Shown one piece after another: positions 2,469-41,963 of a stretch of DNA of 49,705 nt. The notes under the pieces are model-generated. The model saw only the letters and a list, made by a program, of their open reading frames with translations. It was not told the DNA's origin and did not search any database. The translations under genes and the position numbers were made by a program. The DNA lies in IMG/VR virus record IMGVR_UViG_3300036791_001655, positions 1 through 49,705 of that record. One strand, 5' to 3'. This DNA is from a virus. Each line of letters begins with the position of its first letter. The first letter of the stretch is position 1.

Positions 2469-4787
2469 ATGGGATTTTCCACATTTAATCCAGGCGGAGG
2501 AAGCGGCGGCGGTGGTGCTCAGACTGTTCTTAATATGGTTAACCCGATGGACTACGGCGCGTTTGCCGATGGAACTAATCACGCCATAACCGCCCAGGAC
2601 ATTGCCGCTCATACCGGTGGCGGCGAAAAACTCTGGGTTGGAACAATCGTCCGGCAAGTGACCGATGGCGTGACAACGAGCGGCTCACGCACGATCACTT
2701 CCGCGACAGCCAATTTTACCAGTGCCGATGTCGGGCAACGGATCGAGGGAGCGGGACTTCCGGCAGGCTCGCGGATTTCAGCGGTTTTTCCTGCAGACCC
2801 TACCATGGCCACGGTTAACGTGTTTGGATTTGAAGCGACCGCGACCGCTACCGGGGTGACGTTCTCTATTGGCGATTATATAGCTGGCGATCAGTGGGAT
2901 TACGTGGCGCTGCAAGAAGCCATCTTTGCCGCGTTCCAGAACAGTACAAGCATTCCAAATAAGAACAACCGCTGGCTTAATAAGCAGCTTTACATTCCCG
3001 CTGGCCGCTACCGGGTCAATAAGCCGCCGACCATGTATGAGGTTGAAGGCGGCGTTGTCTTTGGTGACGGTCGGCTGACGACTCAAATCGCCACGATCCG
3101 GGCGCAGTATGCGGCTTGGGAATGTAACGGTCTTTGGTTCACCCAGTTCACCGGCATCCAATGGTTTGCCGGTAACGGGGACAAAACAGATCGGCTGCCC
3201 CTCTTTGACGTAGACGGTCACTGGGACGGTTTGCACCTGCTGGGGATTCAAGGCAACACATGGAAGGATTGTCACTGGGACGCTTCTTTTACCATGAGTC
3301 CGCTATTTTCGATGTGCCGTCACGGCACCAATAGCCAAGGCAGCGAAAACCTATGGCTTGACTGCCACTTTAATAACCCCGGTGCTTATGATCCCATAGC
3401 TAACCGAAAGTCGGGAACCGCGTTCATTAACTCCACTTTTAATGCGCTTCAAAATACTTTCATTGGCGGCAATTTTACCCAGCACATTGAAGGAGTGCTG
3501 GTCGCTGCGGGTTCGATAAACATGCTTTCGGTCGGGTTTCAGGCAATCAAACCCGATCAAATAGATTACAACGGTTTCGACGTTCATCAGAACAATAGCG
3601 CCAATGGACACGTTTCGATGGCGCATTGTCGAAGCGAGTCCTTGAAAATGCTTTCGTGCTTTAACGGATCGGTTACGACGCTAGATAGCATGGCTTTTGA
3701 CTCTGCCGCGCCTAATGGAGTCTGGGTACATGGTCATCCTTATACCCTTGGACAGATCACTCAAGGAATCACGGGCGGGAACGGCAACGGACATCTCCAC
3801 ATTTGCTGGCAGGCTGGCACAAGCGGCGCAGCCGAGCCTGTCTGGAATGACAGTTTTGGAGCTTCCGGGACAAACGGTTTCACAAGAGAAATGCAGGACG
3901 CTGTTATGAGCGTAGGTTCTACCAACGTCAATTCGCCCGGGGGCGGATTCGGTGGGGAAGGCAGTTTTGCCGTGGGGAAAGCGGTCATGGTGGTCGCCGC
4001 AGGGCCGTCCAAGGCCAACCTTTACGCAACCTGCACCGCATTTATCGATGGCAACAACATCACCATTGACACCGCCGCTTCGACCGCAGTCGGGGCTGCT
4101 CGCTGCATTATCGGCCCAAAAACGATCGATGGAACCGCGATCTGGATGCATGACGAGTATTGTGAGGCGGACTTAAATTCTCCAACATTTGTTCGGAACT
4201 GCTCTTTTCGGTGGGGATACATCCGTGCCAACGGAGGCGGTCTGTCGGCGACAGGTGACGCTTATTGGCCCGTTAAATTCGACGGCTGCAACTTCGCAAG
4301 GGCCGATGCGCTTAACGCTTCCGGGATGATTAACTCGCCAATCAGCGGTGTGTTTACCTTTCCGGTCGTTACAACCCAGGACGGGAAACAATACACAAAC
4401 AATCATCTTACCCTCAATGGGGGCTATAACGATGGACAGCTCATGGGACGAATCGCGCCTCCTTCACGCGCGATCGCCCTCACCACAACCTCCGGCACGA
4501 TCAATATGACCACAATGAGCCGGGCTGTTTATACCCTGACCCCGACCGGTGATTGCACGATCAATTCGACCAGCGCAGCAGCCAACGCCAGCGCGGGCGG
4601 GGAAGCGGCTACCTTTATTATCACGACCAGTGGCACTATTTCGCGCAACATCACTTTTGGCACCAATTTTATCTCCGCCGGGGTGCTTGCCACCGGAACT
4701 GTCTCAGGCAAAAGATGGACGGTCAGTTTCAAGCTTTTTACCGACCAGATTACCTGGGTTGAAATCTGCCGAAACGGGCCAATGTGA
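2469..4787 (+). CDS. Tailspike with pectate-lyase-like beta-helix
   Basis: This is a 772-residue protein. After a glycine-rich leader (GGGSGGGG, residues 9-18) comes MDYGAFADGTN, the usual opening of pectate-lyase-3 right-handed beta-helix domains in phage tailspikes, followed by QLYIPAGRYRV, the next conserved block of that family. The body continues with short repeating strands as expected of a parallel beta-helix. The last 100 residues are T, S and I rich and may be a separate trimer tip. Such proteins bind and often cleave host polysaccharide. Active-site residues cannot be assigned without a structure, so depolymerase activity is inferred from family and position. Confidence 0.8.
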   Translation: MGFSTFNPGGGSGGGGAQTVLNMVNPMDYGAFADGTNHAITAQDIAAHTGGGEKLWVGTIVRQVTDGVTTSGSRTITSATANFTSADVGQRIEGAGLPAGSRISAVFPADPTMATVNVFGFEATATATGVTFSIGDYIAGDQWDYVALQEAIFAAFQNSTSIPNKNNRWLNKQLYIPAGRYRVNKPPTMYEVEGGVVFGDGRLTTQIATIRAQYAAWECNGLWFTQFTGIQWFAGNGDKTDRLPLFDVDGHWDGLHLLGIQGNTWKDCHWDASFTMSPLFSMCRHGTNSQGSENLWLDCHFNNPGAYDPIANRKSGTAFINSTFNALQNTFIGGNFTQHIEGVLVAAGSINMLSVGFQAIKPDQIDYNGFDVHQNNSANGHVSMAHCRSESLKMLSCFNGSVTTLDSMAFDSAAPNGVWVHGHPYTLGQITQGITGGNGNGHLHICWQAGTSGAAEPVWNDSFGASGTNGFTREMQDAVMSVGSTNVNSPGGGFGGEGSFAVGKAVMVVAAGPSKANLYATCTAFIDGNNITIDTAASTAVGAARCIIGPKTIDGTAIWMHDEYCEADLNSPTFVRNCSFRWGYIRANGGGLSATGDAYWPVKFDGCNFARADALNASGMINSPISGVFTFPVVTTQDGKQYTNNHLTLNGGYNDGQLMGRIAPPSRAIALTTTSGTINMTTMSRAVYTLTPTGDCTINSTSAAANASAGGEAATFIITTSGTISRNITFGTNFISAGVLATGTVSGKRWTVSFKLFTDQITWVEICRNGPM

Positions 4788-12355: not shown

Positions 12356-13348
12356 ATGGCAAACGGAGTGACAGGATATCAAACTGAGGATATCCCGATT
12401 CTTTCTGATGTGTTTGGGGCCAAACCAGCAGTTGCTCCATACACCCCGACAATCTTTTCCGAGGAACAGTTAAAATCGCTGACCGAAAACCTGGCTGCGA
12501 TGCCCAAGATTTCGGAGCTGGGCACTCAGTATTACGATTACATGTCCGGGGCGATGGAGCGCGCCATCCCCGGTTTTGCCGATATCTTAAAAGAAGGCGG
12601 CACACTGACTGCAAAAATGGAAAGCACGGCAGGCCAAGAGCTGGCCGGTCAGATTCCGCAGGATGTGGTTGACCAGGTACAGCGCAGCTCAGCTTATCAA
12701 TCGCTCCTTTCTGGGACGGGAGGCAGCCCAATGGCAAGCGCCAATCTGGCCCGTAACCTCGGGCTAACTTCACTCGATTTAATTGGTGCAGGTGCGAATT
12801 TGCAGGGCCAGGCCGGGAACGCAGCACAACAGTGGAGCGGGTTGGCTGCCCGCAACATTATGAACCCGGCTGCCTTTTTCATTAGCCCGCAGGAACAGGC
12901 CGCGCAGACTATGCAGAACAATCTTTACACGCAAGCGACCCAGCAGCTGGCTAATAACCTGGCCGCTGCGCCCAGCCCGGTGGCCAAGGGAGTAAGCGAC
13001 ACCATTATTAATTTGCTTGGAGCATATCTGGGTGCCGGGAAAGGCGGAGGTGCCGGAGGAACAGCTCCCAGTTACAGTCCAAGCCAGTATGCCGGTCAAC
13101 AAGCTTTCGCACCAGCTTCTGGCTGGCAGCCTGCTCAATCTGGCACAGCGGCAATAGGAGCTTCACTTGCTGGCCCGCAAGCTTATCCTCAGACAGCTGA
13201 TCCTTTTAATGTAGGGGTTCCCGGCGGTTATGGCGCGCCTTCAGGCTATGGAACCACTACTCCAATCCCTTACACTCCGGTGGATTACACAGGGACAACG
13301 GCTTTTACCGGGACTAATACGGATCCTTTCAACATAGGAGGATATTAA
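12356..13348 (+). CDS. Internal virion (ejection) protein candidate
   Basis: This is a 330-residue protein with a good ribosome site (GAGGAG about 10 bases before ATG). The first 200 residues are helical and alanine, glutamine and asparagine rich. The last third is G, P, T and Y rich and probably disordered (GYGAPSGYGTTTPIPY). It is the first of three consecutive genes, followed by a coiled-coil protein and a 2192-residue protein. That arrangement of one small, one medium and one giant protein resembles ejection-protein sets of podoviruses. No enzymatic motif seen. The ejection role is inferred from composition and order. Confidence 0.55.
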   Translation: MANGVTGYQTEDIPILSDVFGAKPAVAPYTPTIFSEEQLKSLTENLAAMPKISELGTQYYDYMSGAMERAIPGFADILKEGGTLTAKMESTAGQELAGQIPQDVVDQVQRSSAYQSLLSGTGGSPMASANLARNLGLTSLDLIGAGANLQGQAGNAAQQWSGLAARNIMNPAAFFISPQEQAAQTMQNNLYTQATQQLANNLAAAPSPVAKGVSDTIINLLGAYLGAGKGGGAGGTAPSYSPSQYAGQQAFAPASGWQPAQSGTAAIGASLAGPQAYPQTADPFNVGVPGGYGAPSGYGTTTPIPYTPVDYTGTTAFTGTNTDPFNIGGY

Positions 13349-13349
13349 A

Positions 13350-14396
13350 GTGGCAAACGGTGGCGGAGGCGCATTAGAAGCTCAACAGCGGATCGCAGCC
13401 GATATTCCTTACAAGAATATTGCCCTGGAAAATCCAGCTGACAGGTTCCTGAACGCCTGGAGTATGGCGACCCAGCTCAAACTGAAAAAGAGTGAGATTG
13501 AAGGCAAAATGCAGGCGTTGGCCGAGCGCAACCGGCAACTGGAAATGACGGGAGATCTGCGGGAGAGAGAATTTTCCCTGCGCGCAATGATGGATCAATC
13601 AAAAATGCAGCACATGGGCGACATGTATGACCTGGCCACGCAACGGCTTGAGTTGGACAGCACCCGGGCCACCAACACCGCAGAAAACCAGCGGCAGAGA
13701 AATGAGATTGCGATGGATGCTTTTGATCTGCGCAAGAATCAGGATGAAAGAAGGATAAATGCCCAGGGCGGGATGGCAAGCCTGGAAGCTCAACTCTCCT
13801 CGGAAGGTCTAACCCCGGGGACGCGGGAATACCAGAAAGCTTTGGTTGAACGGGCCACTCCTTACCTGCGCGATTTGCCCACCAGTGAAAGTAACGCTTG
13901 GTTACGGCAACTTTACAATAACAGCAACACCGCTTCGGAGCGGGAAACCCGCCAACTGCAAATGAAGCAGGAGATGATGCGCCGTGATATTGGTTCAACT
14001 CTTTTTGGCAACCCGGCAGTTCAGGATTTGTCACCGCTTCTCCACCCGGAAGATCTTCCCGATGAAAAGGTAGCCACGCCAGGTATTCCATGGCATTTCT
14101 GGGAGACAACTCCACCAAAAACTACCGGTCGGAAACTGCTCATTTCAGTCGATGCTGCCGGTCGGCCAATTCAAAAGGCCGTCAGCATGGCTGATCTTAC
14201 CCGGGCCAGAAAACAGTATGAAGATGTGATGAAAGAGCAGGGCGAGATCGCTCCAAAGATCAATGATCCAGATCTGGGTGTGTATGCCAAACCAGCAAGC
14301 ACGCTGCGGGATCGGGCGCTCAGGGTGCGGGAAAATCCAGGTGCCAGCGCAGAAGCCAAGGCGGCAGCTGAACAATACCTGAACAACAACCCTTGA
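13350..14396 (+). CDS. Coiled-coil internal virion protein candidate
   Basis: The start is GTG at 13350, preceded by AGGAGG 7 bases upstream, and the previous stop is one base away. The 348-residue protein is dominated by charged helices. Residues about 35-140 read as a long coiled coil (KKSEIEGKMQALAERNRQLE), and the C-terminus ends in further A and E rich helix. It is the middle member of the internal-virion gene trio. Function beyond that is unknown. Confidence 0.6.
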   Translation: MANGGGGALEAQQRIAADIPYKNIALENPADRFLNAWSMATQLKLKKSEIEGKMQALAERNRQLEMTGDLREREFSLRAMMDQSKMQHMGDMYDLATQRLELDSTRATNTAENQRQRNEIAMDAFDLRKNQDERRINAQGGMASLEAQLSSEGLTPGTREYQKALVERATPYLRDLPTSESNAWLRQLYNNSNTASERETRQLQMKQEMMRRDIGSTLFGNPAVQDLSPLLHPEDLPDEKVATPGIPWHFWETTPPKTTGRKLLISVDAAGRPIQKAVSMADLTRARKQYEDVMKEQGEIAPKINDPDLGVYAKPASTLRDRALRVRENPGASAEAKAAAEQYLNNNP

Positions 14397-14397
14397 A

Positions 14398-17300
14398 ATG
14401 CCCGATCCAGACCAGGATTTTATTGATGCGGTCAATAGCCAGTCCAGGCCGTCATCATCCCCGGGCATAACAGGAACTGCTGACCCGGATCAGGATTTTA
14501 TCAATGCTGTAAGAGGATCCCGTGGTGGATCTGCACCAAATTCCCTCACTCCGCAGACCGATCGGGCGATGCAGAACGCTGCCGCCCAGATTACCGCTGC
14601 TAACAAAACGAGTGCCCTGGAGGCTGGTGCCGGTGCTTTTGTCAGGAATGTCGCCCCGACCGCAGCATTTGTAGGTGCTTTGCCTTTAGGTGCAGCAGCT
14701 TTTGGAGCACTTGGCGAAGCACTCGCGGGGCCGCCGGGCGCTCTTGTCGGCGGTGTATTTGGCGGTTTAGGTACGGGATATATTGCTGCTGATGAAACTG
14801 CCAAAGCGCAACGCGCCCTTGCCCAGCGAATATCGCCTCACGGGGTTTTTTCCCCCGAAGTCGAAGAGATGCAGGCAAGGGAACATCCTATTGCGACATT
14901 GGTGGGAGGCTCACTTGCTTTAGGCAGACCCAATCCCATGAATATTCTTCGGGCTGCCCGCACACTTGCCACCGAAGATGGGCAACAAGCCTTGGGCACA
15001 CTGATCCGAACAAGGAGTGTCGCTGGACTAACCCCGGAGAAACGGGCAGAGGTATTTAATCTACTCAATGTCGGGCAGATGGGATTCTTCAATGCGGCCT
15101 TTAACATCAAAACGCAGTTGCAGAGAGGTAATTTTAGCTGGGAAGAACTCGCTGCGGCTGCCGGGACTGGGGCGCTCTTTAATAAGCCGTGGGTATTTTA
15201 TCCAAATCCAGAAGCAGCTGCCTTACGCGAATCTATCAAGCCCAAGCCCGGTGCTGCGCCGCCAGGAGCTGCGCCCCCGGGGACAATGCCTCCGGGCGGC
15301 GGGCCGCCAGGTGTGCCACCTCCAGGTGGAGCGCCAGGCGGAGTTACAGGCGCGCCAGCAGGGGCGGCAGCTCCATCGCCGAGAAATTATGAAGAGTGGA
15401 TCAGGAGCAGGCACGCCGGGACAGGGATCCCCGCGCCGCCCCTCGCAGCACCAGTTTCAATCGAAGCACCAATCGGAACAGCAAAAGAAATACCAGGAAC
15501 ACCACCATATGCCGTCAAGTCAAGTACTGCACAAATTCAAGGAAGGGAAACTCCACTCGGGGTCGAAGCACGGCCCGAAAGTCAAATCCCGCGCCCAGGC
15601 GATAGCGATTATGCTCTCGGAGAAGCGCAAAGAGGAGCACCAGGGAGGGAAGTACCACCGGAACCCGTTTCCGCCGCCCCATCCGTGGCTGGAGCGCCAT
15701 CGGAGCGAGCATATGAACCGCCGGTAGAAGAACGCCCGCCAAGTCCGTATTTCATTCAAGGTAACCCTAGAAGTGGGTATGGCGTTTTCGATCGGCGCAC
15801 CAAAAGTCCTCAACCACTTGTTACCAGCGGAAGTCTGGCCAGCGCCGTGCAATCCAAAAATAATCTGGATTCAGCCTTTTTTAAGGAGCTGGCCGGTAAA
15901 GCGGTAGAGACAGTTCAAGAGAAAACCGCTGAAGAACTAAGGACGCCAGATTTTGCATCCGAACTTGAAAGAGCGCGCGCAGAGGCCGCTGCATATCACG
16001 ATCGAGGTCAGCTGGCACCGGTCGCTCTTAACCGGCGGATCCGGCAGCTGGAAGAAGAAGCATCCCCGGAACGCGCCGAGGAAGCACGACTCAGAGCCGA
16101 GCATGAAGCGGAATTGACCGCTGGAGCGCAGGAATACCAGGAACGCGGCGGACAAGAGCTGCTTCCTGCCATTAAAGAGCTTGGCGGAATCAATCCCAAC
16201 TCACCCCATTTTAAGGATCTAGGGGAAGCGTTCCAAAAATCCTCCAAGTTCACGCAAGGCAAGTTTGCCAAAGCGGTCAGCGGCGAGAAACTCAACTATG
16301 GTGATCTCTTTAATAAAGATGCTCCTGATGACGATAGAATTGTTCTGGGACTGCGGGCAAAAGGTTTTGATGTAGATACCCCGGGGCAACTGGCTGACAT
16401 GCTCGATACCCGGCTGCGGTCACCTGAAAGAAAATTCTGGGGAATGGAGGAGCGTGGCCGGGCAGCAGAAGAACCCATGTATCTCACGCCTGAAGGAGCA
16501 CCAAAACCTCCCTCAGAAGCCGAGCAAGCTCCAAGCCCTATATTGGGTTTCGGGCGGCGCAAGGAAGCCAAGGAGGCAGCCGCGCCTTATACCCCGGGGA
16601 CAGAGAAACCACCCGAGGTGCTTGACCGGGAACTTCAGAACATGTCCGGGCAAGGCACTAAAACAGTATCCTCTACAATCGGCGCAGACGGAGTTGGTGA
16701 GAAAAAAATTAGGTTAACGGCCAATATGGAACAAATGCTGGCTCTCCATAGCGACCAAATGTATAAGAACCCACTCCAGCAAGTAGTCATAAAAGAGCTG
16801 GTTCAAAATTCTCTTGATGCTGTCCGGGCCGCTGGAGCAACCGATGAACATCCTTCAATCATTGACATTACCAATAACCCGGACACACGGGAAATCACAG
16901 TCAAGGATAATGGGACAGGTATGGATCCTGAAGTCATTGAAAACGCCTTTTTCCAGATAGGTGGAACTTACAAGCCGACTGAGAATCAGAACACTTCCGG
17001 CGGCAATGGGTTAGCGAAAACTACTTTTATGATTCCCTCGGACAAAGTGCGCCTAGAAAGCAATAAGAACGGAATTAAATCCGTTGTCGAGGAAACGGGC
17101 AAAAATATCGCAAAAGGAGAGATTACGATAAAAAGCACTCGGACTTCCGATCCTGACGGAACCACAATGACAGTCAAAATTCCCGAGAGCTACATTGATG
17201 CCAATGGCGAGGAGCAGAAGATCAACTTTATCCGTAATCCTAATTATATCCCGTTTTTTTCTAACGATAAGTATGATAGGCGTCCCACGCTTGGCCCGGT

Positions 17301-20300
17301 TAGAATCCGTGTAAACGGAGAGTTCATGGATCATCTGGGTGTAACACAGAAAGACTGGCATAAGGACAACAGCTTTCATTTTTCTTGGGGCGATGCTGAT
17401 GTGTATGTCGATCCATCACACAGTGATTATCCAAAAGCCCACGTTCTGTCTGCCGGGATTCAACAATTCACAATCGGTTCGGGTGAGCTATATGGTGGTT
17501 ATGGCAAACCCACGTTTCCCCATGATGTTATTATCGATGTCCGTTCCAAAGTAAAACCTGCGCACCCTGATTATCCATTCAACCTTCAGAGAGAGGATTT
17601 CAGGGGAAGGCGAGATGCTGACAAAGCGGCGATGATACAGTTCATGCGCCGAAAAGCGACCGAGCAACAACTTTTGCAGGCACAGGATACCTTCAAAAAT
17701 CTCCAGCAACTTCCTTCAGTGGATCCGACCAAGGATCTTTCTCCTGAAGATCTGGCCAAAGTCCGAGAATCCACCTCTGGCAAACAGGAAGTTAAGCCTT
17801 ATACGCCTGAAAAAGTAATCAGCACTGACGTTGGGGTCAGGGATGTGGTTCTGCATTATGAGAGCGGAAGGACTGAGGTAATTCCCAGGGAGAAGTATGT
17901 CAAGCCAGAGGAATCAACTTTCCAAGCGGAAAAGGAAGTAGATTACGAAAAAACCAAGCTTGATGTGACCCAGATGGATCCGACCAAGCCTTGGCTGCAT
18001 AATAATACCAATGTTAAATACACTGACATTAAAGGTGCGCCGGAGTTACTGGCTAAACTCGGCAATGCCCTGACCGGGTTCATGCGGGAATTTGGAAAGG
18101 TTGACGGCTATGAAGATTATAGCCGGACTGATCCGGGTGGATGGTTTGGCGGGATTTCTTTCGACAAGGAGTATCGCGGTCTTAACATGGTGAACCCGTT
18201 CAAGGCTGTCTGGTTTAACCCGGGACTCATGTCCAGTGCTGCGATGAAAAGTCCCCGAGCTGCTGCAATAGAGACTTTACAGATCTTCATCCATGAGTTA
18301 ACTCATATGAATGCGCGCGAAGAAGGGCCGGGATTTACTTCAGAGCAGGTCACTAATTTTGCCCGGATGTTTAACGCTGGCGTTCCTCTTGAGTTATATG
18401 AAAAAGCCCTAAACAACATCTATGAAAAACACTGGGACGCCATCAACCAAATCGGTGACCGACTCAAAGACTACAATACAAAAAATGCTGCCACTAGTTT
18501 CAAGGGTGGTGCAGCCCTTGGCCCGGAACCCGAAAGAGCACAAAGAACTGGTGAAGGTGTACCTGGAGTCGATGTACCGGGGGATGAACGACTTTCGGAA
18601 CAAAGACCAACCGGCCCTGGACGAGCTGAAACGCCAGATCGCAATGCTGGGGCGATCGGGGACATCCTCGCCGGTAAAATCGCTACCGAGAAAAGAGGCG
18701 CGCCCCAAACAGCCCCGGGGGCAGCAGAGCGACCTCCAACAGTCGCAGAATCTCCAGGAAGAGCCGCTCCCGAACCCACCGCTCCAGAACGCGCCGAACC
18801 TTCCCCCGGAGTAACCAGACCGCCAGCACAACCAGGTGCTGCTCCAGCAGCGACTTCGCTCTTTCCCCTTTCGCAGCAACGCCGCCAACCAACCGGCCCG
18901 CAACCCGCTCCGGTTCCAACCGGCCCGGTCGCTCCGCTGCCACCGGAGAAGGCAGCCGAACTAGGGCGCACCAATACCCTGATTGAAACACAAAAAGACA
19001 AACCCCGGCCTTTAACCAGTGAAGAACATGTTCTCTTAAACAAGCGGGAAGCCGAACTTCAGTCGCAACAGAGCAGGATTGCTGCCGATCAGATGGATGC
19101 TTTCCAGCGCGGGGATCAGGCCAGAATTGCTGAAAACGATGTCAAGTATTCTGAGACCCTGGACAAGTTGCAGGATATCCGCAAAGCCCGGGAAGTTGGC
19201 CAGAAAGGACAGCAGGCCAAGCAGGCTGCTCGCGTTGATTCCCCGACTCGGTTTACTCTTGAAAAGATGCTCGACGAGAGGCAGGCGATCGAGAAAGGCC
19301 GTCCTTTAACGAAATTTGAACATGAGAATGTGGTACGGGAATACGACAAAATTAAGGAAAAACAGGACGCGCTTCAAGCTTACCTGCACAGTCCCAAAGC
19401 GACACAATTCTGGGAAAACCTGCGCAAACAGGCGGAAGCCTACCGAAGCGGTAAAGGCAAACTGGAAACGCTTATGCCCCTTAGCAAGGAACACTTGGCC
19501 AAAGCAGCTGAAGCGAAAAAGGCAGAACAGGACTGGATCAATAAACTTGCCCAAGCTCGACGGGACAAACTTTCCTGGTGGCAAAAAAGTCCGGACTTTA
19601 TCATCAAATGGCACCGGGCATGGGTCATTTCCGGCATTCATTCGCTGGAAAAACTGGGTGTTGCTTCGGTTATGGGGACAGTCATACTGCCTGCCCGGGA
19701 AATGGTTGGAACTGCTCTCAAACATCTCCCTGTTGTTGGCGACGTTATTAGTAGAGTAGCCGCACGCGCGCCCCGGGAAGGTTACGGGTTCAACACGCGT
19801 GCCGAAGCAGCGGCTTTTGGGGAGACGTGGAAAAATCTCCTCTCCGATTGGGGTAAGAATATCAGAGGAGAGAAACCGGATTTTGAAAGTGTTTTTGGTA
19901 GAATGCAGGATCTGCCGCCGGAACTGCAAAATTATGTTGGTTTTTTGCATACCGCGATCAAATCGCCATTGGCTCGCAATGAATGGACACGCTCGTTGAT
20001 TCATCGCGCCGAGTTTGATGCCCGGCACGGAGTTGATATTACCGATCCACTGGTTCAAATGGACAGGGGACGACTGGCTTACGAAAATTCAGTTTTCTGG
20101 CGGTTCCAAAACAGAGGGCTGGTCACCACTCTCTATCGCAATCTTTTGGCCTCATTGGCCCGCGCGGGAGGTGGCGCAAAGTTAGCTTCTTACGCTATTC
20201 AAGCCGAATTGCCTGTGGTTCAGGTTCCGAGCAATATCCTGGCCCGCATTTTTGAAGGAGTTTTTGGCACTTTCACAGGTGGCGGAAAAATAGTGGGAAC

Positions 20301-20976
20301 GATCTTGGGCAAAGGGATTGAAAATTTGAAACCCGCTGAAGCCGATTTAATCATGCGCAACTTAAAAACCGGAGGACTCGGAGGTGCTCTTACCCTGCTG
20401 GGTATTTTGGCTCCACAATATTTTGGCGGGTTTTACCGGGAAGGACAAAAAAAACAGCCCGGTGAACTTGGCTTTGGGCAGGTAAAAGTACCGGAAGGCG
20501 TCCCCGTCCTTGGCGGCAAAGTTATCCCGGCCTACATTCTGGATAACCCTTTCCTTATCCTGCCCCAGTTTGGAGCAACTATTCGGCAGGTTGGAGATGC
20601 TATGCTGCGTAAGCGGGATACGGAAACTGCCGGTTACTGGCTCGGCACGATGGAAGCTGTTTACGCTGCCTTGACCGAGTCACCCTTTGTCCGTGAATCG
20701 ATCGAGATCAATAGATTGCATGATCCCCGGGTAGTGGGCGATGTTGTGGGTGAACATCTTCGTTCGTATGTGATTCCGATGCTTGTCCAACAGGTGGCTG
20801 CGATGACTGACCCGGCAGAAAAGCGTTACCCAACCGGTTTCACAGAACGGATGAAGATGGGTCTCCCCGGACTCCGCGAACAGGTTCCTGATGTTCTACC
20901 CCGGCCACAGCAACTGGGAGTCAGGCGCAGAGGGCTGGTGCCATCGGTTCATCTCAGAGCGAGTGGCCGCCGCTAA
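14398..20976 (+). CDS. Giant polyvalent internal virion protein with GHKL ATPase domain and zincin motif
   Basis: This 2192-residue protein has several parts. It opens with a DPDQDFI(D/N)AV repeat (residues 3-12 and 29-38), then a glycine-rich hydrophobic stretch at 84-131, then a long P, E and A rich region with linkers. Residues about 777-1080 are a GHKL (HSP90/histidine kinase) ATPase domain: N-box ELVQNSLDA at 800-808, G1 box DNGTGMD at 837-843, and a glycine lid GGNG at 868-871. A zinc peptidase motif HELTH follows at 1299-1303. After another disordered linker come coiled coils and, from about 1735, hydrophobic helices (ISGIHSLEKLGVASVMGTV). Such mixtures are known as polyvalent proteins in phages and conjugative elements, injected with the DNA. 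Its virion role is inferred; the two catalytic motifs are plainly visible. Confidence 0.85.
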   Translation: MPDPDQDFIDAVNSQSRPSSSPGITGTADPDQDFINAVRGSRGGSAPNSLTPQTDRAMQNAAAQITAANKTSALEAGAGAFVRNVAPTAAFVGALPLGAAAFGALGEALAGPPGALVGGVFGGLGTGYIAADETAKAQRALAQRISPHGVFSPEVEEMQAREHPIATLVGGSLALGRPNPMNILRAARTLATEDGQQALGTLIRTRSVAGLTPEKRAEVFNLLNVGQMGFFNAAFNIKTQLQRGNFSWEELAAAAGTGALFNKPWVFYPNPEAAALRESIKPKPGAAPPGAAPPGTMPPGGGPPGVPPPGGAPGGVTGAPAGAAAPSPRNYEEWIRSRHAGTGIPAPPLAAPVSIEAPIGTAKEIPGTPPYAVKSSTAQIQGRETPLGVEARPESQIPRPGDSDYALGEAQRGAPGREVPPEPVSAAPSVAGAPSERAYEPPVEERPPSPYFIQGNPRSGYGVFDRRTKSPQPLVTSGSLASAVQSKNNLDSAFFKELAGKAVETVQEKTAEELRTPDFASELERARAEAAAYHDRGQLAPVALNRRIRQLEEEASPERAEEARLRAEHEAELTAGAQEYQERGGQELLPAIKELGGINPNSPHFKDLGEAFQKSSKFTQGKFAKAVSGEKLNYGDLFNKDAPDDDRIVLGLRAKGFDVDTPGQLADMLDTRLRSPERKFWGMEERGRAAEEPMYLTPEGAPKPPSEAEQAPSPILGFGRRKEAKEAAAPYTPGTEKPPEVLDRELQNMSGQGTKTVSSTIGADGVGEKKIRLTANMEQMLALHSDQMYKNPLQQVVIKELVQNSLDAVRAAGATDEHPSIIDITNNPDTREITVKDNGTGMDPEVIENAFFQIGGTYKPTENQNTSGGNGLAKTTFMIPSDKVRLESNKNGIKSVVEETGKNIAKGEITIKSTRTSDPDGTTMTVKIPESYIDANGEEQKINFIRNPNYIPFFSNDKYDRRPTLGPVRIRVNGEFMDHLGVTQKDWHKDNSFHFSWGDADVYVDPSHSDYPKAHVLSAGIQQFTIGSGELYGGYGKPTFPHDVIIDVRSKVKPAHPDYPFNLQREDFRGRRDADKAAMIQFMRRKATEQQLLQAQDTFKNLQQLPSVDPTKDLSPEDLAKVRESTSGKQEVKPYTPEKVISTDVGVRDVVLHYESGRTEVIPREKYVKPEESTFQAEKEVDYEKTKLDVTQMDPTKPWLHNNTNVKYTDIKGAPELLAKLGNALTGFMREFGKVDGYEDYSRTDPGGWFGGISFDKEYRGLNMVNPFKAVWFNPGLMSSAAMKSPRAAAIETLQIFIHELTHMNAREEGPGFTSEQVTNFARMFNAGVPLELYEKALNNIYEKHWDAINQIGDRLKDYNTKNAATSFKGGAALGPEPERAQRTGEGVPGVDVPGDERLSEQRPTGPGRAETPDRNAGAIGDILAGKIATEKRGAPQTAPGAAERPPTVAESPGRAAPEPTAPERAEPSPGVTRPPAQPGAAPAATSLFPLSQQRRQPTGPQPAPVPTGPVAPLPPEKAAELGRTNTLIETQKDKPRPLTSEEHVLLNKREAELQSQQSRIAADQMDAFQRGDQARIAENDVKYSETLDKLQDIRKAREVGQKGQQAKQAARVDSPTRFTLEKMLDERQAIEKGRPLTKFEHENVVREYDKIKEKQDALQAYLHSPKATQFWENLRKQAEAYRSGKGKLETLMPLSKEHLAKAAEAKKAEQDWINKLAQARRDKLSWWQKSPDFIIKWHRAWVISGIHSLEKLGVASVMGTVILPAREMVGTALKHLPVVGDVISRVAARAPREGYGFNTRAEAAAFGETWKNLLSDWGKNIRGEKPDFESVFGRMQDLPPELQNYVGFLHTAIKSPLARNEWTRSLIHRAEFDARHGVDITDPLVQMDRGRLAYENSVFWRFQNRGLVTTLYRNLLASLARAGGGAKLASYAIQAELPVVQVPSNILARIFEGVFGTFTGGGKIVGTILGKGIENLKPAEADLIMRNLKTGGLGGALTLLGILAPQYFGGFYREGQKKQPGELGFGQVKVPEGVPVLGGKVIPAYILDNPFLILPQFGATIRQVGDAMLRKRDTETAGYWLGTMEAVYAALTESPFVRESIEINRLHDPRVVGDVVGEHLRSYVIPMLVQQVAAMTDPAEKRYPTGFTERMKMGLPGLREQVPDVLPRPQQLGVRRRGLVPSVHLRASGRR

Positions 20977-20977
20977 A

Positions 20978-22291
20978 ATGGATCTGAAAGATAAAACGAT
21001 CCTGGTCAGGGATTATGGATTATTTGCTTCATGGGCATCCAAGCTAACGGCTTACTTCGGGAGGGTTCTTTATTACGCTCCTTTCAAATCCGCCTTTCCC
21101 CGGAGTCAACAATACGCCATTGGAACAGGTCTTGAAGGAGTGGAGCGGGTAACAGATTTCTGGGATCATGTCGATGAAGTGGACATTTTCTTTTTCCCGG
21201 ATGTTTATGACGGGGATTTACAGGAGACCTTACGGGAAATGGGTAAACCGGTCTGGGGCAGCGCCAAGGGCGAGGAACTTGAGCTGATGCGCTGGCAAAC
21301 CAAGCTGTTCCTCAAAAAAGATCTTCATCTGCCCGTCCAACCGGTAGAACGCATCATCGGTCTTTCCGAGCTGCGCGAGTATCTGGGGGAACCGGAAAAC
21401 GAAAACAAATATGTCAAAATCTCGCTGCTCCGGGGTGATGTTGAAACTTTTCATCATCAGAACTTCCTTCTTTCCGAGCCGATCCTGGATGACATCGAGC
21501 AGAAACTTGGCCCTTACAAGGAGAGCAAAGAATTTATCGTGGAAGACGCGATCGATCAAGCGATCGAGATAGGCTATGACGGGTTTACCATTGACGGGCA
21601 GTATCCCGACCCGGGAATGTTTGGGTACGAGATCAAGGATGTGGCTTATGTCGGCGTTGTCCGGCCTTACGAGGAGTTGCCGGAGCCGGTCAAGGAGGTG
21701 AACGCAAAACTGGCTCCGGTCTTTGCTGACTACAATTATCGAGGATTTTGGAGTAGTGAAATAAGACTTCAAAAAGATGGTAAGCCGTATCTGACGGATC
21801 CCTGCTGTAGAGCAGGATCTCCTCCATCAGAACTTTATCAGGAAATGTTCTCAAACTGGGGAGATATAATCTGGTTCGGAGCACATGGCGAGCTAGTAGC
21901 GCCCCAACCAACTGGGAAGTTTGGAGTAGAGATACTAATCCATAGTGCGTGGGCCGACCAGCATTGGCAGGCTGTTTATGCTGAACCCGAGATTCGCCAA
22001 TGGGTGAAACTGCGCAATCTTTGCCAGGTGGATGATACGCTATACGTCGCCCCGCAGGTGGTCGGGTTGCCCGAGATAGGTGCGATCGTGGCGGTGGATG
22101 ATTCACTTTTGGGCGCGATAAAAAAGCTGAAACAATACTGCCAGAAGATAAACGGTTACTCTCTGAGCCTGAACCTGGAACGAGTGGCTGAAGCTATCGA
22201 CACGATTAAGACCGGGGTAGAAAATGGCATACCTTTCAGCGACGAGACCCTTCCAACTCAGGCACAGGTCGCCAAAGTGCTTGGTAGTTAG
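20978..22291 (+). CDS. ATP-grasp family ligase-like protein
   Basis: Using the ATG at 20978, one base after the giant gene stop, the protein is 437 residues. It has the general pattern of an ATP-grasp enzyme: a nucleotide-contact strand YVKISL with K147, a central FIVED at 186-190, and a C-terminal metal/catalytic part with SSEIR (E261), YLTDPCCRAG (D274, R278) and SPPSELYQEM. ATP-grasp enzymes join a carboxylate to an amine or thiol using ATP. A family of this length is, as far as I recall, found in other phages with no assigned substrate. It is the last late gene and meets the leftward block tail to tail, stops overlapping at 22288-22291. Confidence 0.65.
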   Translation: MDLKDKTILVRDYGLFASWASKLTAYFGRVLYYAPFKSAFPRSQQYAIGTGLEGVERVTDFWDHVDEVDIFFFPDVYDGDLQETLREMGKPVWGSAKGEELELMRWQTKLFLKKDLHLPVQPVERIIGLSELREYLGEPENENKYVKISLLRGDVETFHHQNFLLSEPILDDIEQKLGPYKESKEFIVEDAIDQAIEIGYDGFTIDGQYPDPGMFGYEIKDVAYVGVVRPYEELPEPVKEVNAKLAPVFADYNYRGFWSSEIRLQKDGKPYLTDPCCRAGSPPSELYQEMFSNWGDIIWFGAHGELVAPQPTGKFGVEILIHSAWADQHWQAVYAEPEIRQWVKLRNLCQVDDTLYVAPQVVGLPEIGAIVAVDDSLLGAIKKLKQYCQKINGYSLSLNLERVAEAIDTIKTGVENGIPFSDETLPTQAQVAKVLGS

Positions 22292-22479: not shown

Positions 22480-22621
22480 TTTGTTTCTTTTTACTTTTTG
22501 CGAGATACCAATCATCGCGCAGGATGGAATCCAGTGTGGAAACCGGTGGCACGATTTTGAGTTGGCATGAGCGGGTTTTTTCCCTGAGCCATTTGATGAA
22601 TGCAAAGAGTGGCACTCTCAT
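22457..22621 (-). CDS. Small hypothetical protein coupled to the glycosyltransferase gene
   Basis: This gene of 54 residues begins MRVPLFAFIKWLREKTR and is lysine rich near the end (KSKKK). Its ATG overlaps the stop of the upstream three-domain gene as ATGA (22618-22621), the coupling used throughout this strand, which is the main reason to call it. It ends in TAG at 22457-22459. No family or function recognised. Confidence 0.5.
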   Translation of the reverse strand: MRVPLFAFIKWLREKTRSCQLKIVPPVSTLDSILRDDWYLAKSKKKQNEDQIPH

Positions 22622-24957
22622 TTCTTTATTCTTTTCTTTCTCCTTCTCTCTTTAAGCCCGGCATAAACCAGGGCTTGCATGACGTTACATTTGTTAGCCA
22701 AGCTGGAAGCGGAAAATTCTCCGATGCGTCTGACGTAATGGCGCATCTGTTCCTGGGTTAGAAGATCGTTCGTATCCGGGACTGTCTCATCCGGGACGGG
22801 TGCTTTGACTGGGACGCACAGGATATCATACATCGGGCTGGTGCTGCCGCAGTTTTCCTGGATGATTGAGTAGGAATAATCATGCGCTTCCAGCCAGTGG
22901 AAAATATCCCCGGGGACATTTCCCTGACGGCGAAGCGCGCCAAAATTTACTTCGATCACCATGACGGGCCGGTTTGCAGTAATTGTCGCTTCTGCGCCTC
23001 GCAGCACGTTTGGCTCGTAACCTTCCACATCGATCTTGATGAAGTTGGGTTTGATCTTGAAATCGTCCAATCGGCGCATCTCCACATCGGCTACCTTCAT
23101 GTGGGTTCCGATGTAGCCTCCCCCGGGCTGACCGTTATTGCCCGAGAGGGGAACTTTTCCGGTTTTATCGCCCAGAGCTACCTCATACAAAAAAACACGG
23201 TCTTTATGGGCGGCAAGATTATGGGACAGACACTCAAATGAGAGTGGGTTTGGTTCAAAGGCATAGACTAACCCGGCTTTGCGGGCGTAAGCGATTGCGT
23301 GATCGCCTATGTGGGCACCAATATCAATTACCCTGTCGCCTTTATTGATGTGCCGCAGGACAAAGGGCAGGAAGTTTTGGTCGTGGTCGAGGCGGTTTTC
23401 TGATTCTACCCAGCCACTTATCTGGTCGCCTTCCAGCGCCCAAATATCCCCGGGCAAGATCTTGATACGGATTGTCTTGCCGGTGAAATTTGCAGAGGGA
23501 GTTTGCCCTTCCGAGTTCTCTGCAATCCGCCCCGCGTGATCGCCGCCGCTCAAAATCTTTTCCCTGCGACCCTTGATTTCCTCGGTCAACCCGCCGTGGC
23601 TCCAGAGTTGATCCACGGTTAGTTCCGGCCAGGGATCTTTGCTGGTGTCAATCCAGTGAAATTTATCCCGGAAAAACTTGTAGGCAAACGCGCCCATGCA
23701 GTTGAACTCGCTAAAGGCGCGAAAGGGACGGTTTTTGATGTAGGTCTCGGCATCAACGCCGTGCTGCGTCAGGATGAATTGCCTGAACGCGGCGTAGAAC
23801 CAGCGGGGAAAGATGAACGGAAACCGCCGCATGAACTCAAACTCGGCGTTCTCGCCCATAAACTCCCGCATGACCGAAAACCAGGGCAGACTTTTCTCGA
23901 TTTCGCTGTTTGGAGTAATCATCCAGCGGGGTTTGTCGCCGATCAGATAGATCTCCGGGGTAACCGGTCGAGTGAACATGGTGTCACTGTCGATGTGCAA
24001 AATCCAATCGGCGTCAGTGAAGGTGTCGGCGTAAACCTTGTAGATTTGCTGGGAAAGATAACCATCCTCGCAATACTCCTTTTTATCGTCGATCACGATT
24101 ACCTTGCGAAACCCGATCGCAAAGCGCGCGATCGAGCGTTGGCAATAAGAGAGCCATTCCGCGTCCTTGGCGTAAGTCTTTATAAAAATGTCGCAGATAG
24201 GCGACGCGGCTGCGGGTTGAACGGTCGCCGCGTCATTACTTTTCACGGTTTGGATCACCGGCAAACCACATGTGGCATCACCTTCTTTCTTTTTTCTGAG
24301 CAGGTCGATCAAGCTGCCGTCTTTTGAAGCGTGAAAGAGAACTGCTTCCTTCCGAATCTGGGTTTCCAGTTCGTGGGGATCACTGTAAGGGGGATGTCGC
24401 CAAGCGTGCTCGATCAGTTTGGTAAAATGTGCCCGGGGAACGATCTGCTCGCGTCCAGCCATGTCCCACGCGGTCTCATGCGCGCGATAGGCTTCTCCCG
24501 CGTAAGCGTGGAGCGGATTGGGGTAAAATCCCACGCCTGACATATGGAGTGGAATGTTCTCCACTTCCACCCGGTCGCCCATGAAAGGCTTTCCCGCGCG
24601 CTTAAATTCGGCCTCCAGCGTGTCGAGCCAGCCCTTTTGGAGCGGAATAGCGTCCGGCTCCATCCAGAAGAAATAACGCCATTGGGGACGGCCCTGAAGC
24701 GTTCCCGAGGCGAGTCGGAAAAAGTAATTGGCTCCGGCGGGCCAGCCGTCTATTTCCGCCCCGGCTGCCAGCGTTTCGACGTTATCGAAGGCTTTGAAAG
24801 CTTCCTGCCGGATCGAGCTAACCAAGTCCGGGGTGCATCGTCTGTCGTGCATCAGGAGGCACTGGTGACCTTTGCATCCGCCCAGTTCGTTTATCCACTG
24901 GAGGTTTTGCAGGGCCAGATCCTGGTCAGGGATGCTGAAGGGGAAGACAACAATCAT
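22618..24957 (-). CDS. Fusion of two glycosyltransferase-like domains and a FkbM-type methyltransferase
   Basis: This is a 779-residue protein in three parts. Residues 1-230 look like a GT-A glycosyltransferase, with an acidic WMEPDA at 98-103 in the metal-binding position. Residues about 252-450 form a second glycosyltransferase-like domain with HIDSDTMF at 321-328 (DSD 323-325). Residues about 530-720 are a SAM-dependent methyltransferase of the FkbM type: VIDIGAHIGDH at 543-553 and KIDVEGYEPNVLRGAE at 641-656. FkbM enzymes O-methylate sugars and related products, so one chain may both build and cap a glycan. The target (virion, host surface or modified DNA) is not visible. It lies downstream of the replication gene, coupled to small genes on both sides. 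Confidence 0.78.
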   Translation of the reverse strand: MIVVFPFSIPDQDLALQNLQWINELGGCKGHQCLLMHDRRCTPDLVSSIRQEAFKAFDNVETLAAGAEIDGWPAGANYFFRLASGTLQGRPQWRYFFWMEPDAIPLQKGWLDTLEAEFKRAGKPFMGDRVEVENIPLHMSGVGFYPNPLHAYAGEAYRAHETAWDMAGREQIVPRAHFTKLIEHAWRHPPYSDPHELETQIRKEAVLFHASKDGSLIDLLRKKKEGDATCGLPVIQTVKSNDAATVQPAAASPICDIFIKTYAKDAEWLSYCQRSIARFAIGFRKVIVIDDKKEYCEDGYLSQQIYKVYADTFTDADWILHIDSDTMFTRPVTPEIYLIGDKPRWMITPNSEIEKSLPWFSVMREFMGENAEFEFMRRFPFIFPRWFYAAFRQFILTQHGVDAETYIKNRPFRAFSEFNCMGAFAYKFFRDKFHWIDTSKDPWPELTVDQLWSHGGLTEEIKGRREKILSGGDHAGRIAENSEGQTPSANFTGKTIRIKILPGDIWALEGDQISGWVESENRLDHDQNFLPFVLRHINKGDRVIDIGAHIGDHAIAYARKAGLVYAFEPNPLSFECLSHNLAAHKDRVFLYEVALGDKTGKVPLSGNNGQPGGGYIGTHMKVADVEMRRLDDFKIKPNFIKIDVEGYEPNVLRGAEATITANRPVMVIEVNFGALRRQGNVPGDIFHWLEAHDYSYSIIQENCGSTSPMYDILCVPVKAPVPDETVPDTNDLLTQEQMRHYVRRIGEFSASSLANKCNVMQALVYAGLKERRRKKRIKK

Positions 24958-39359: not shown

Positions 39360-39866
39360 ATGGGGATAGAGGAGAAAGGGAAGAAGCGAGGGCGAGCTGG
39401 GAGGATGGCGGACAAGAGTGCTATAAAGGCGTTAGTGACGGTGTATGGGATACGGGAGGCGACGCGGATGAGTGGGTTACCATTTGGGACGGTGAGTGGG
39501 TGGGCGTTCAAGTATCAGTGGAAGCGGGCGAAGGTAGGGATTAAAGCTGGGGGAGAACCTAAAGGACTTGATGCTGGGGACATGTTAAAGGAGGCGTTAG
39601 AGAAGAGCAAGGAAGCCTCCACATTGAACCTGGCAAAGTTTACGGAGAAAGCTAGTCTGAAGGCGGCGGAGCACAGGAGGCCGCTGGAGATAGCCCGCAA
39701 GGTAAAGGATGTGGCGAGTGTTTACAGTACTTTATGGCCGGTGGAAGAGCAGAATGGGTTAATAGAGGGAGGGATCCTGATAGGGACGCAGGAGGTGAGG
39801 CTAGATAGCAAAGAGATAGAAGAGGCCAAGGTAGTAGAAGGCAGGGTTATAGAAGAAGGGGAATGA
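39360..39866 (+). CDS. terS: Small terminase subunit candidate
   Basis: This 168-residue protein has a basic N-terminus and a helix-turn-helix-like region at about residues 20-55 (IKALVTVYGIREATRMSG, then TVSGWAFKYQWKR), which suits DNA recognition at a packaging site. The middle is helical and the end acidic. It begins the block that contains the large terminase. The neighbour overlaps it as ATGA at 39863. The name rests on the HTH and the gene order, not on a clear family signature. Confidence 0.65.
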   Translation: MGIEEKGKKRGRAGRMADKSAIKALVTVYGIREATRMSGLPFGTVSGWAFKYQWKRAKVGIKAGGEPKGLDAGDMLKEALEKSKEASTLNLAKFTEKASLKAAEHRRPLEIARKVKDVASVYSTLWPVEEQNGLIEGGILIGTQEVRLDSKEIEEAKVVEGRVIEEGE

Positions 39867-40273
39867 TACCTCGGACAATAGCTAGGATTGAGCGGTGGGA
39901 CAAGGCTAAGGTGCGCAACGATCAGGTTGGGGACTGGGTCTTGGCTGGGGATTCGATAACTGTGTTAGTGGTGGACGGGTTGCCTCCCGAGAGCGAGTTA
40001 ATGGTAGGCGTGCATGAGTTAATGGAAGCGTTTCTTTGTCGGCGCAATGGGATAAGTGATTCTGCGGTTAACGCTTTTGACGCGCTTTTTGAAGAGGAAC
40101 GCAGGGCTGGGAAACATTCTCTGGAGGCTGAAGCTGGGGATGATCCGCGTGCGCCCTATTTCAAGGAGCATCAGATGGCGACTTTTGTTGAGCGGGCGGC
40201 CTGTCACGCTTTGGACTTCACCTGGGTTAGGCATGAGCAGGCGGTCTCTCACGCGTTGGGCATTACCAAATAG
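39863..40273 (+). CDS. Hypothetical protein with HELME motif, between terminase genes
   Basis: This is a 136-residue protein. It has VHELMEAFLCRR at about residues 51-62 and EHQMATFVERAACHALD at about 109-125. The HExxE form could bind a metal, but it is not the classic HExxH. I recall similar proteins next to terminase genes in other phages, with no known role. It is coupled to terS by ATGA. Confidence 0.6.
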   Translation: MIPRTIARIERWDKAKVRNDQVGDWVLAGDSITVLVVDGLPPESELMVGVHELMEAFLCRRNGISDSAVNAFDALFEEERRAGKHSLEAEAGDDPRAPYFKEHQMATFVERAACHALDFTWVRHEQAVSHALGITK

Positions 40274-40292: not shown

Positions 40293-41963
40293 ATGTATGG
40301 ACTAAAGTTTCCTACAGCTGATCGGCAGGCGATTGAGCTGTATTGTTTTAGTCAGGGTGCGCCTTTAAGTCCGGGGCGTTTTACTCATTTGCGCAACGCG
40401 ATTGACTTAATCTGGAACCGGCTTTACCCGGACTCTTTTATCTGGAACGATTGGAGCGAGCTGCTCATGCGCTCTTTTTCGGAGCACAAATGGGTGACCG
40501 TGACTGGCCCTGCCGCTTCCTGGAAGACAACCAGTGCCGCTCTTTACGCGCTTGTGAGTTTTTATGCTGATCCGCGCAACACGGTGGTGATCTGCACCAG
40601 TACGACCTTGGACGGGCTGCGTCGCCGGATCTGGAAAGAGATTACTCGCTATCACAGGCTTCGGCCTCTTTACGGGCACATGGTGCAAAGTCGCAACGCC
40701 ATTCAATATAGTAAGGGGCATGATAATGCGGGTGTGTTTGGGTTAGCCACTGATAAAGGCGAGATAGATAAAGCGATTGGGAAAATCATCGGCTTCCACG
40801 CCAAAAAGATGCTGGTTTTTGTTGACGAGATGCCTTACACCCCTGAAGCGATCGTGGAAGCCTGCGTCAACTTGGAAAGCGGTTCTTCCCGGTTTGAGTT
40901 TAAGGGTCTGGGTAACGCCGATGACCACCTGGATCCTCACGGGCGGATGTGTGAGCCAAAGGCAGGCTGGGAATCAATCGATGTGGAAAGCGAGCAGTGG
41001 GAGACTCGCCGCGGGATCTGCGTTCACTTGGATGGACTCAAAAGTCCCAATGTCACTGATAAAACCAAGTCTTACCCGGGCCTGCTTACCCAGGAAAACA
41101 TCGATACCGCAACTGCCGTTTACACGGTTGATTCCCCACAGTTCTGGCAGATGCGCCGGGGGTTCTGGGCACCCGAAGGACTCCTTAAAACCGTTCTTTC
41201 CATGCCCATGATTACCCGCTCAGAGGCTTTTTCGGGTTGCTCATTTGACCAGCAGTCAACTCCGCTGGCCGGTCTGGATCCGGCCTTTGAAGGAGATGAC
41301 CGCTGCGTCCTGCGCTTCGCTCGCTGTGGCGAGGTCGAGGGCAAAAACACTCTCCTCCTGGGCGAAAAACTCTTTATCCGCACCAAAGTCACCCCCGACG
41401 ATCCGCTCCATTACCAGATTGTGCGCCAGGTCAAGGCCGAATGCGCTCGGCGTGAGGTCGCTCCCTACTATTTCGCGCTTGACTCAACCGGCGAAGGCGG
41501 CGGCCTTGCTTCCATTTTCCAAACCGAATGGAGCCGGGAAATCTTGTGCGTCGAGTTTGGCGGCACCGCGAGCAAAAATCCCGTTTCTTCAACTAATTCC
41601 AAACCCGCTAACCAGGAATACGACCGCGCTGTGACCGAGCTGTGGTTCTTCTTTCGCCTCCTCCTCCTCAACGGCCAGATCAAAGGACTGGATCAGGAAA
41701 GCGCAACCGAGTTCTGTCGCCGCTGGTGGTCGATGCGCGGCAGTTTAATCGCCCTGGAAACCAAAGCTAAAATGAAAGATCGCACCCGGCGCAGCCCAGA
41801 CCTGGCTGATGCGGTTGTTGTAACTGCCCGCTGCGCCGCCGCTCGCTGCGGGCTGTCTCCGCGCGCTCGCTCCCATACCCAGAAAGAGATCGATTCACCC
41901 TGGAAACGCTTCCTTGCCAAACGTTCTTTGGACGTTGAGTATGCCAACCCTTTGTCTCTCTAA
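40293..41963 (+). CDS. terL: Large terminase subunit
   Basis: This 556-residue protein has both terminase parts. The ATPase has the P-loop GPAASWKT at 72-79 and Walker B MLVFVDEM at 173-180 (D178, E179). The nuclease part has AGLDPAFEGDD with D329, FALDSTGEGG with D397, and SPDLADAVVV with D503 and D506, the acidic set of the RNase H-like terminase nuclease. It powers DNA packaging at the portal and cuts the genome. The adenine-contact region lies in the first 60 residues. Length and motif order are normal for the family. Confidence 0.9.
   Translation: MYGLKFPTADRQAIELYCFSQGAPLSPGRFTHLRNAIDLIWNRLYPDSFIWNDWSELLMRSFSEHKWVTVTGPAASWKTTSAALYALVSFYADPRNTVVICTSTTLDGLRRRIWKEITRYHRLRPLYGHMVQSRNAIQYSKGHDNAGVFGLATDKGEIDKAIGKIIGFHAKKMLVFVDEMPYTPEAIVEACVNLESGSSRFEFKGLGNADDHLDPHGRMCEPKAGWESIDVESEQWETRRGICVHLDGLKSPNVTDKTKSYPGLLTQENIDTATAVYTVDSPQFWQMRRGFWAPEGLLKTVLSMPMITRSEAFSGCSFDQQSTPLAGLDPAFEGDDRCVLRFARCGEVEGKNTLLLGEKLFIRTKVTPDDPLHYQIVRQVKAECARREVAPYYFALDSTGEGGGLASIFQTEWSREILCVEFGGTASKNPVSSTNSKPANQEYDRAVTELWFFFRLLLLNGQIKGLDQESATEFCRRWWSMRGSLIALETKAKMKDRTRRSPDLADAVVVTARCAAARCGLSPRARSHTQKEIDSPWKRFLAKRSLDVEYANPLSL

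Follow-up and report, generated by a model that had tools for sequence, protein, structure and literature searches.

Giant multidomain proteins that phages inject into their hosts are already known. Closest to the locus described here are the polyvalent proteins, which are very large and multidomain, have a zincin-like peptidase as a common hub, contain disordered linkers and are thought to be delivered with the DNA (PMC5512222). Two roles have been proposed for their metallopeptidases (MPTases), either processing of the giants, be it ahead of packaging, inside the head or once in the host, or action as effectors; P1 DdrB, with an MPTase at its C-terminus, is cut before packaging, whereas N4 vRNAP, which also bears one, is packaged uncut (PMC5512222). 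The latter, a giant of ~3,500 residues, is ejected along with two small ejection proteins encoded in its operon, and a beads-on-a-string passage has been proposed for it (PMC12633501). No GHKL-, HSP90- or gyrase-type ATPase is named in the main text of the paper that introduced polyvalent proteins (Iyer et al. 2017, PMC5512222), and a full-text literature search for GHKL or HATPase together with polyvalent or ejection proteins, with subscription papers and preprints outside its scope, returned nothing relevant. Here we analysed IMG/VR record IMGVR_UViG_3300036791_001655 over its whole 49,705 bases (the window), in which the gene at 14398..20976 (+) encodes a giant of 2192 residues. Judged by sequence conservation, a GHKL ATPase and a zincin within it (residues ~745-1398, 16630..18591, +) are one conserved cassette and not a coincidence, and this pairing appears new in injected giants, and widespread. 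On balance, we read the giant as a polyvalent-type ejection protein with a GHKL ATPase-zincin metalloprotease core.

A first-pass annotation, made from the letters of the DNA alone, had placed an N-box, DNGTGMD, GGNG and HELTH motifs in the giant, and all of them lie exactly where it put them. The GHKL (Bergerat) ATPase domain spans residues ~768-930 (16699..17187, as all features of the giant on the + strand) and matches HATPase_c_3 (1.3e-11) and HATPase_c (2.7e-9), both above the curated Pfam cut-offs, as well as RIIA and the topoisomerase II large subunit in PHROGs and, distantly, the HSP90 family in NCBIfam (2e-11). Its N-box ELVQNSLDA (16795..16821) holds E800 as putative general base, N804 as presumed Mg ligand and D807, followed by the G1 box DNGTGMD (residues 837-843, 16906..16926) and the G2 box or lid GGNG (residues 868-871, 16999..17010); E800, N804, D807, D837, G841, G868 and G871 are kept in 69/69 dereplicated giants of the family described below. 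An AlphaFold2 model of the 654-residue cassette, built from 11 rows (mean pLDDT 73, pTM 0.62), gave 604 Foldseek matches in the PDB at E<=0.001, and since these are led by the N-terminal and middle domains of TRAP1/Hsp90 and by GyrB, the Bergerat fold is confirmed; Foldseek TM-scores were low because the placement of the domains in the model is uncertain. With an ExxxN N-box, DxGxG, a GxG lid and this fold, the domain belongs to the GHKL superfamily, and the profile search and structure prediction that the first-pass annotation had proposed both bear out its call.

The resemblance continues into an Hsp90/RIIA-like middle (transducer) domain (residues ~941-1112, 17218..17733), where Foldseek matches TRAP1, HtpG and GRP94 over the N-terminal and middle domains together. 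Here lies a YPFNLQRE loop (17572..17595) with R1065, equivalent to the catalytic-arginine loop of Hsp90; we take the YPFNxQRE pattern to correspond to the PLNxSRE loop of Hsp90 with its ATP-contacting arginine. R1065 is found in 67/69 giants, with a gap in the other two, and R1065-E1066 stays invariant when RIIA rows are included (alignment A4). The giants thus have both the catalytic Glu, E800, which all of them retain and which marks hydrolysing GHL enzymes off from histidine kinases, and the transducer Arg of hydrolysing members, and we have little doubt that the GHKL part of the cassette is an active ATPase.

Two known families invite comparison. Hsp90, HtpG and TRAP1 share the Bergerat fold and the middle domain with its catalytic Arg, and are the best PDB fold matches; however, where Hsp90 has a C-terminal dimerisation domain the cassette has a zincin, inside a giant phage protein, and the window giant scores below the Hsp90 family cut-offs (~43 bits vs 455; HtpG 22.8 vs 371). 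In cultured phages, the nearest matches are RIIA-like proteins (T4 rIIA family), which likewise join a GHKL to a middle domain with an SRE/QRE loop. These differ in being 640-885 residues long (mostly 640-825), with an N-terminal GHKL domain and no zincin, and their genes adjoin RIIB in several annotated phage records, whereas in the window giant the GHKL domain is internal, at ~770 of 2192 residues, and those window genes that were compared with PHROGs gave no RIIB match. Furthermore, an IQ-TREE phylogeny splits the giants from 29 RIIA proteins by one branch (100/99 support; one change); the inner order of this tree is uncertain because of several long branches.

The second part of the cassette, a zincin-like metallopeptidase domain (residues 1180-1385, 17935..18552), was modelled alone with AlphaFold from alignment A7 of 49 rows (pLDDT 94.2, pTM 0.88). 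It carries the HELTH active site (residues 1299-1303, 18292..18306) and E1309 (18322..18324), the candidate third zinc ligand at position 11 of HExxHx5[H/E/D]; this position, counted after the first His, is His in 56 giants, Glu in 10 and Asp in 2 (L127/L128), and in one (L061) the His comes one residue later. An HExxH is short, and no Pfam zincin, WLM included, matches the window sequence itself, as would also be seen if the motifs had arisen by chance in an unrelated structural protein. That explanation is refuted, its probability being negligible, by the 69/69 conservation, the GHKL match at E=1.3e-11 and the Hsp90-type fold: chance would supply 0.04 HExxH motifs in the window giant, yet all 69 giants carry one downstream of the GHKL domain. 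The motif is aligned in 67/69 of them and present but misaligned in L127 and L128, whose apparent loss of HExxH was discarded, as both have HEITH.

Weak Pfam matches among the 49 zincin members were to WLM (14, best 4.5e-6), YgjP-like (10), Zincin_1 (6) and SprT-like (4), and the top weak PDB fold matches of the model are zinc peptidases, including the fungal zinc peptidase 1g12 (0.044) and Wss1; among viral predicted structures, A0A516L4L2 (1.5e-8) is the only clear match to the model. A phmmer search of the zincin against the PDB gave only hits at E>=0.56, not to a protease domain, which we regard as chance. Motif conservation, the weak Pfam matches of relatives and weak fold similarity uphold the zincin call made from the letters, and the domain is very probably a zinc protease; in profile searches the call is backed by the relatives with their WLM, YgjP and SprT matches, but not by the window sequence itself. 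The HExxHx5H of WLM/YgjP/SprT zincins (Wss1, SprT) is common to most cassette relatives, whereas the window has Glu at the third-ligand place and the cassette zincins have conserved N-terminal HNN and NP motifs. Polyvalent MPTases take a Glu from the second helix as third zinc ligand (PMC5512222), unlike the H/E/D candidate at position 11 here, and with 2/49 members matching MPTase-PolyVal (PF18818; best E 0.08) the cassette zincins fall outside that family.

How general the pairing is emerged from scans of IMG/VR. Two-sequence alignments as queries returned the same contig only, with patterns drawn from fast-evolving ends, and the family was opened by A4, in which the window GHKL domain is aligned with RIIA domains. 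This first scan gave 41 loci of two kinds: 30 were free RIIA-like proteins without a zincin partner, and the remainder were giant open reading frames (ORFs) with an internal GHKL domain and an HExxH ~450-560 residues further on. As A4 covered the GHKL region only, the zincin present in all ten new giants had not been preselected. In most giants the BLASTP similarity runs unbroken across window residues ~741-1400 (27-45% identity, E down to 1e-177), and in the most distant one, L022, it covers the GHKL part only; the flanks of the cassette are unrelated among giants. A second scan with the cassette alignment A5 gave 78 loci, with the five weakest of 85 left out, and after dereplication 69 giants of uncultured viruses, window included; an RIIA protein (L026) that had entered a first 70-row alignment was excluded before the final counts. 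The cassette is alignable throughout these 69, as well as in relatives 25-72% identical to it, and the complete giant ORFs span 1,560-5,211 residues.

When the whole window giant was compared with 50,697 phage records by tblastn, the sole matches were GHKL domains of RIIA type (residues ~745-1012, at 25-35% identity), and the zincin consensus had no match there even at E=10; the cassette is absent from the 72,556 plasmid records searched, and the window protein had no relative in the genome-contig collection searched. Two bacterial genome matches are short contigs of metagenome-assembled genomes (MAGs), which are likely viral, and 399 sampled genomes of one bacterial order yielded only the already known MAG contig. 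The first-pass annotation had remarked how unusual it is to find a GHKL domain in an ejected protein, which holds for the literature and for cultured phages, but it missed a GHKL-zincin cassette conserved in dozens of phages. Some family members are peculiar in layout. In L087, L091 and L103 the cassette starts at ~residue 50-90 of a protein of 2.5 thousand residues, directly after another of 3.2 thousand; L128 has a GHKL-zincin protein of at least 6,100 residues; and in L130, a Neisseriaceae MAG contig, the cassette is split over two consecutive ORFs (model residues 20-361 and 372-650), as if interrupted between ATPase and zincin.

The window ORF has no internal stops, and a contig of 48,920 bases (L001) encodes a 2264-residue relative that is 75% identical and has all the same motifs. 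Between the two, dN/dS is 0.27 overall, 0.29 in the zincin and ~0.22 in the GHKL and middle domains, with a minimum of 0.10 at residues 561-690; purifying selection acts on the giant gene. Residues 1-740 (14398..16617) begin with two DxDQDFI[DN]AV repeats, followed by a hydrophobic stretch at 85-110, Pro/Gly/Ala-rich linkers and the conserved 561-690; no known domain was found there, and homologues occur only in L001 and L053. Behind the cassette, residues 1400-2192 (18595..20973) consist of a Pro-rich linker, a helical region and a C-terminal region with no Pfam match and no established domain. The disordered linkers read from the sequence earlier are indeed Pro/Gly/Ala-rich, with 20-23% Pro at residues 280-450, 690-745 and 1370-1520, whereas of the hydrophobic stretches expected at both ends only residues 85-110 pass a mean Kyte-Doolittle value of 1.4. 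An LPD38 domain in the C-terminus was considered for its motif-like similarity (L.P.EADLIMRN) and is not claimed, at an hhalign probability of 2-4%.

As a very large multidomain phage protein with a zincin, the window giant corresponds to the polyvalent type, and several relatives carry polyvalent-type domains in the same chain: ART-PolyVal with a C5 methylase (L021), LPD38 with a weak ART (L015), ART-PolyVal, LPD38 and a weak YgjP (L111), LPD22 (L106) and RadC (L020). In an iterative search, LPD38 was found in 21 loci.

Gene order in the relatives points to the virion. In L106, the major head protein (8.5e-78) is followed by tail proteins (phrog_394 and phrog_376), internal virion proteins (phrog_308 and phrog_418), a 607-residue protein with an endolysin-family N-terminus, a 3013-residue giant and a tail fibre, which is the order of T7 genes 10 to 17 with the giant at the gp16 position, a positional correspondence only and no claim of gp16 homology. 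A tail protein of L106 also precedes the giant in L020 and L111. Furthermore, a DNA-ejection family (seeded by L109, phrog_4287 1.1e-16) lies at most three genes upstream in 36 of the 51 relatives that have at least two upstream + strand genes. In the window, a late or structural position is supported by synteny with L001 and L054 only; the genes two upstream (330 residues, 12356..13348, +) and directly upstream (348 residues, 13350..14396, +) are candidate small ejection proteins by position and by that synteny, with no family match. Window genes 8003 and 10571 were also considered as podoviral tail proteins, and no homology was detected. Like T7 gp16 and N4 gp50, the giant would be the largest of the internal virion proteins and have smaller ejection proteins as neighbours; it differs in giving no Pfam match to an RNA polymerase or a transglycosylase, activities that the cassette would replace or supplement. 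Judging from gene position in relatives, the giant is likely packaged in the virion and ejected. The first-pass annotation had called it an internal, ejected protein, which is supported indirectly by the relatives, where it sits at the gp16 place or behind the DNA-ejection family; in the window itself, the two preceding genes show no detectable relation to known ejection proteins.

Two other readings of the giant may be weighed. A large late-gene protein with one hydrophobic segment could be a tail tape measure with incidental enzymatic domains, and PMC10770324 describes an RNA polymerase fused to the tape-measure protein of P23-45; this is very improbable, as several relatives are T7-type and short-tailed by gene content with the cassette at the gp16 position, linkers so rich in Pro do not resemble a helical tape measure, and no tail-tip genes follow the giant in the window. 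Alternatively, the cassette might act in the producing cell, where ATP is available, and there, before or during packaging, serve the giant or head proteins as chaperone and mature them by proteolysis; the location among structural genes and the cut P1 DdrB (PMC5512222) would fit. We think this unlikely, for N4 vRNAP enters the head uncut although it has an MPTase (PMC5512222), and a chaperone for assembly needs no fusion into a giant with effector domains. In addition, prohead proteases are not known to need an ATPase.

For the ejection protein that we favour, the following course may be envisaged. Expressed late, the giant would be loaded into the head and delivered to the host along with the DNA; if N4 vRNAP is a guide, its chain would be kept and pushed out like beads on a string. 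Once in the cytoplasm, where ATP abounds, the GHKL part would bind ATP, close like Hsp90 and unmask or feed the neighbouring protease. This protease would act once, either on linkers within the giant, so that its domains come free, or on a host or defence protein that the clamp has seized; self-processing is slightly favoured. The simplest reading assumes that the particle contains little ATP and the cell much of it, so that ATP would gate the protease. We advance ATP-gated proteolysis by the cassette only tentatively, as somewhat less than an even prospect. Still more doubtful is the full proposal of a hitherto undescribed ATP-gated protease, in which a GHKL (Hsp90-type) clamp, and not an AAA+ ring, drives a metalloprotease that is inert in the head, switched on by host ATP and widespread in uncultured phages.

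Several observations weigh against this account. The coupling of ATPase and protease is argued only from their fusion and co-conservation, their relative placement is uncertain in the 654-residue model (pLDDT 73, pTM 0.62), and no cleavage site was identified for the protease. Likewise, the zincin model has no PDB match at E<=0.001 with Foldseek, the window protein gave no match to polyvalent marker domains, the window's own flanks match no known ejection family, and no link from genes 12356 and 13350 to the DNA-ejection family emerged when profiles were compared. Conceivably, the giant is instead an ejected counter-defence effector, RIIA-like on the host side, in which an Hsp90-like clamp captures a host defence or regulatory complex that the zincin destroys. 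Its nearest phage GHKL relatives, the RIIA proteins, are discussed as counter-defence factors (PMC7824862), the ART-PolyVal and DNA methylase domains of relatives are effector-like, and conservation of the cassette, but not of its flanks, suggests that the target lies outside the polypeptide. We hold this to be possible but rather unlikely, since RIIA falls in a separate clade, lacks the zincin and stands beside RIIB.

The giant gene is the second-last in a long + strand run that also holds a tail-fibre-like gene (317-2464, +), a pectin-lyase-like gene (2469-4787, +) and late genes with no family match. Its 3' end is overlapped by 86 bases by a 466-residue gene (20891..22291, +), ATP-grasp-like from reading only, with no Pfam match and conserved in L001 only. 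A terminase-like protein (40293-41963) matches annotated terminases at E 1e-6; most structural genes have no PHROG or cultured-phage match, and thus the collection searched contains no close cultured relative of the virus. Elsewhere, a CobS/MoxR-type AAA ATPase (phrog_249, 9e-23) is followed by a 447-residue protein that has an HETRH motif and weakly resembles an uncharacterised phage family (36818-38897, +), a pair that looks like MoxR/CobS plus VWA-metallopeptidase; a 136-residue protein with an HELME motif (39863-40273, +) lies just upstream of the terminase; and a 779-residue fusion (22618-24957, -) has an N-terminal part that reads as glycosyltransferase-like and a C-terminal methyltransferase (phrog_8156, 5e-34), a relative of which also lies behind the giant in L013. 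PADLOC defence models gave nothing relevant.

The recurrence of the cassette speaks for a fixed ATPase-protease pair and not a one-off fusion, and adds an Hsp90-like ATP-driven machine to the tools that phages appear to inject. As searches of cultured-phage, plasmid and Pfam collections did not find the cassette, environmental phages may share a common strategy that has so far escaped notice. The proposal also offers a testable answer to how an injected giant could sense the cytoplasm, through ATP, and how its parts could be released, and a GHKL-coupled protease, if true, would be a new form of energy-dependent proteolysis.

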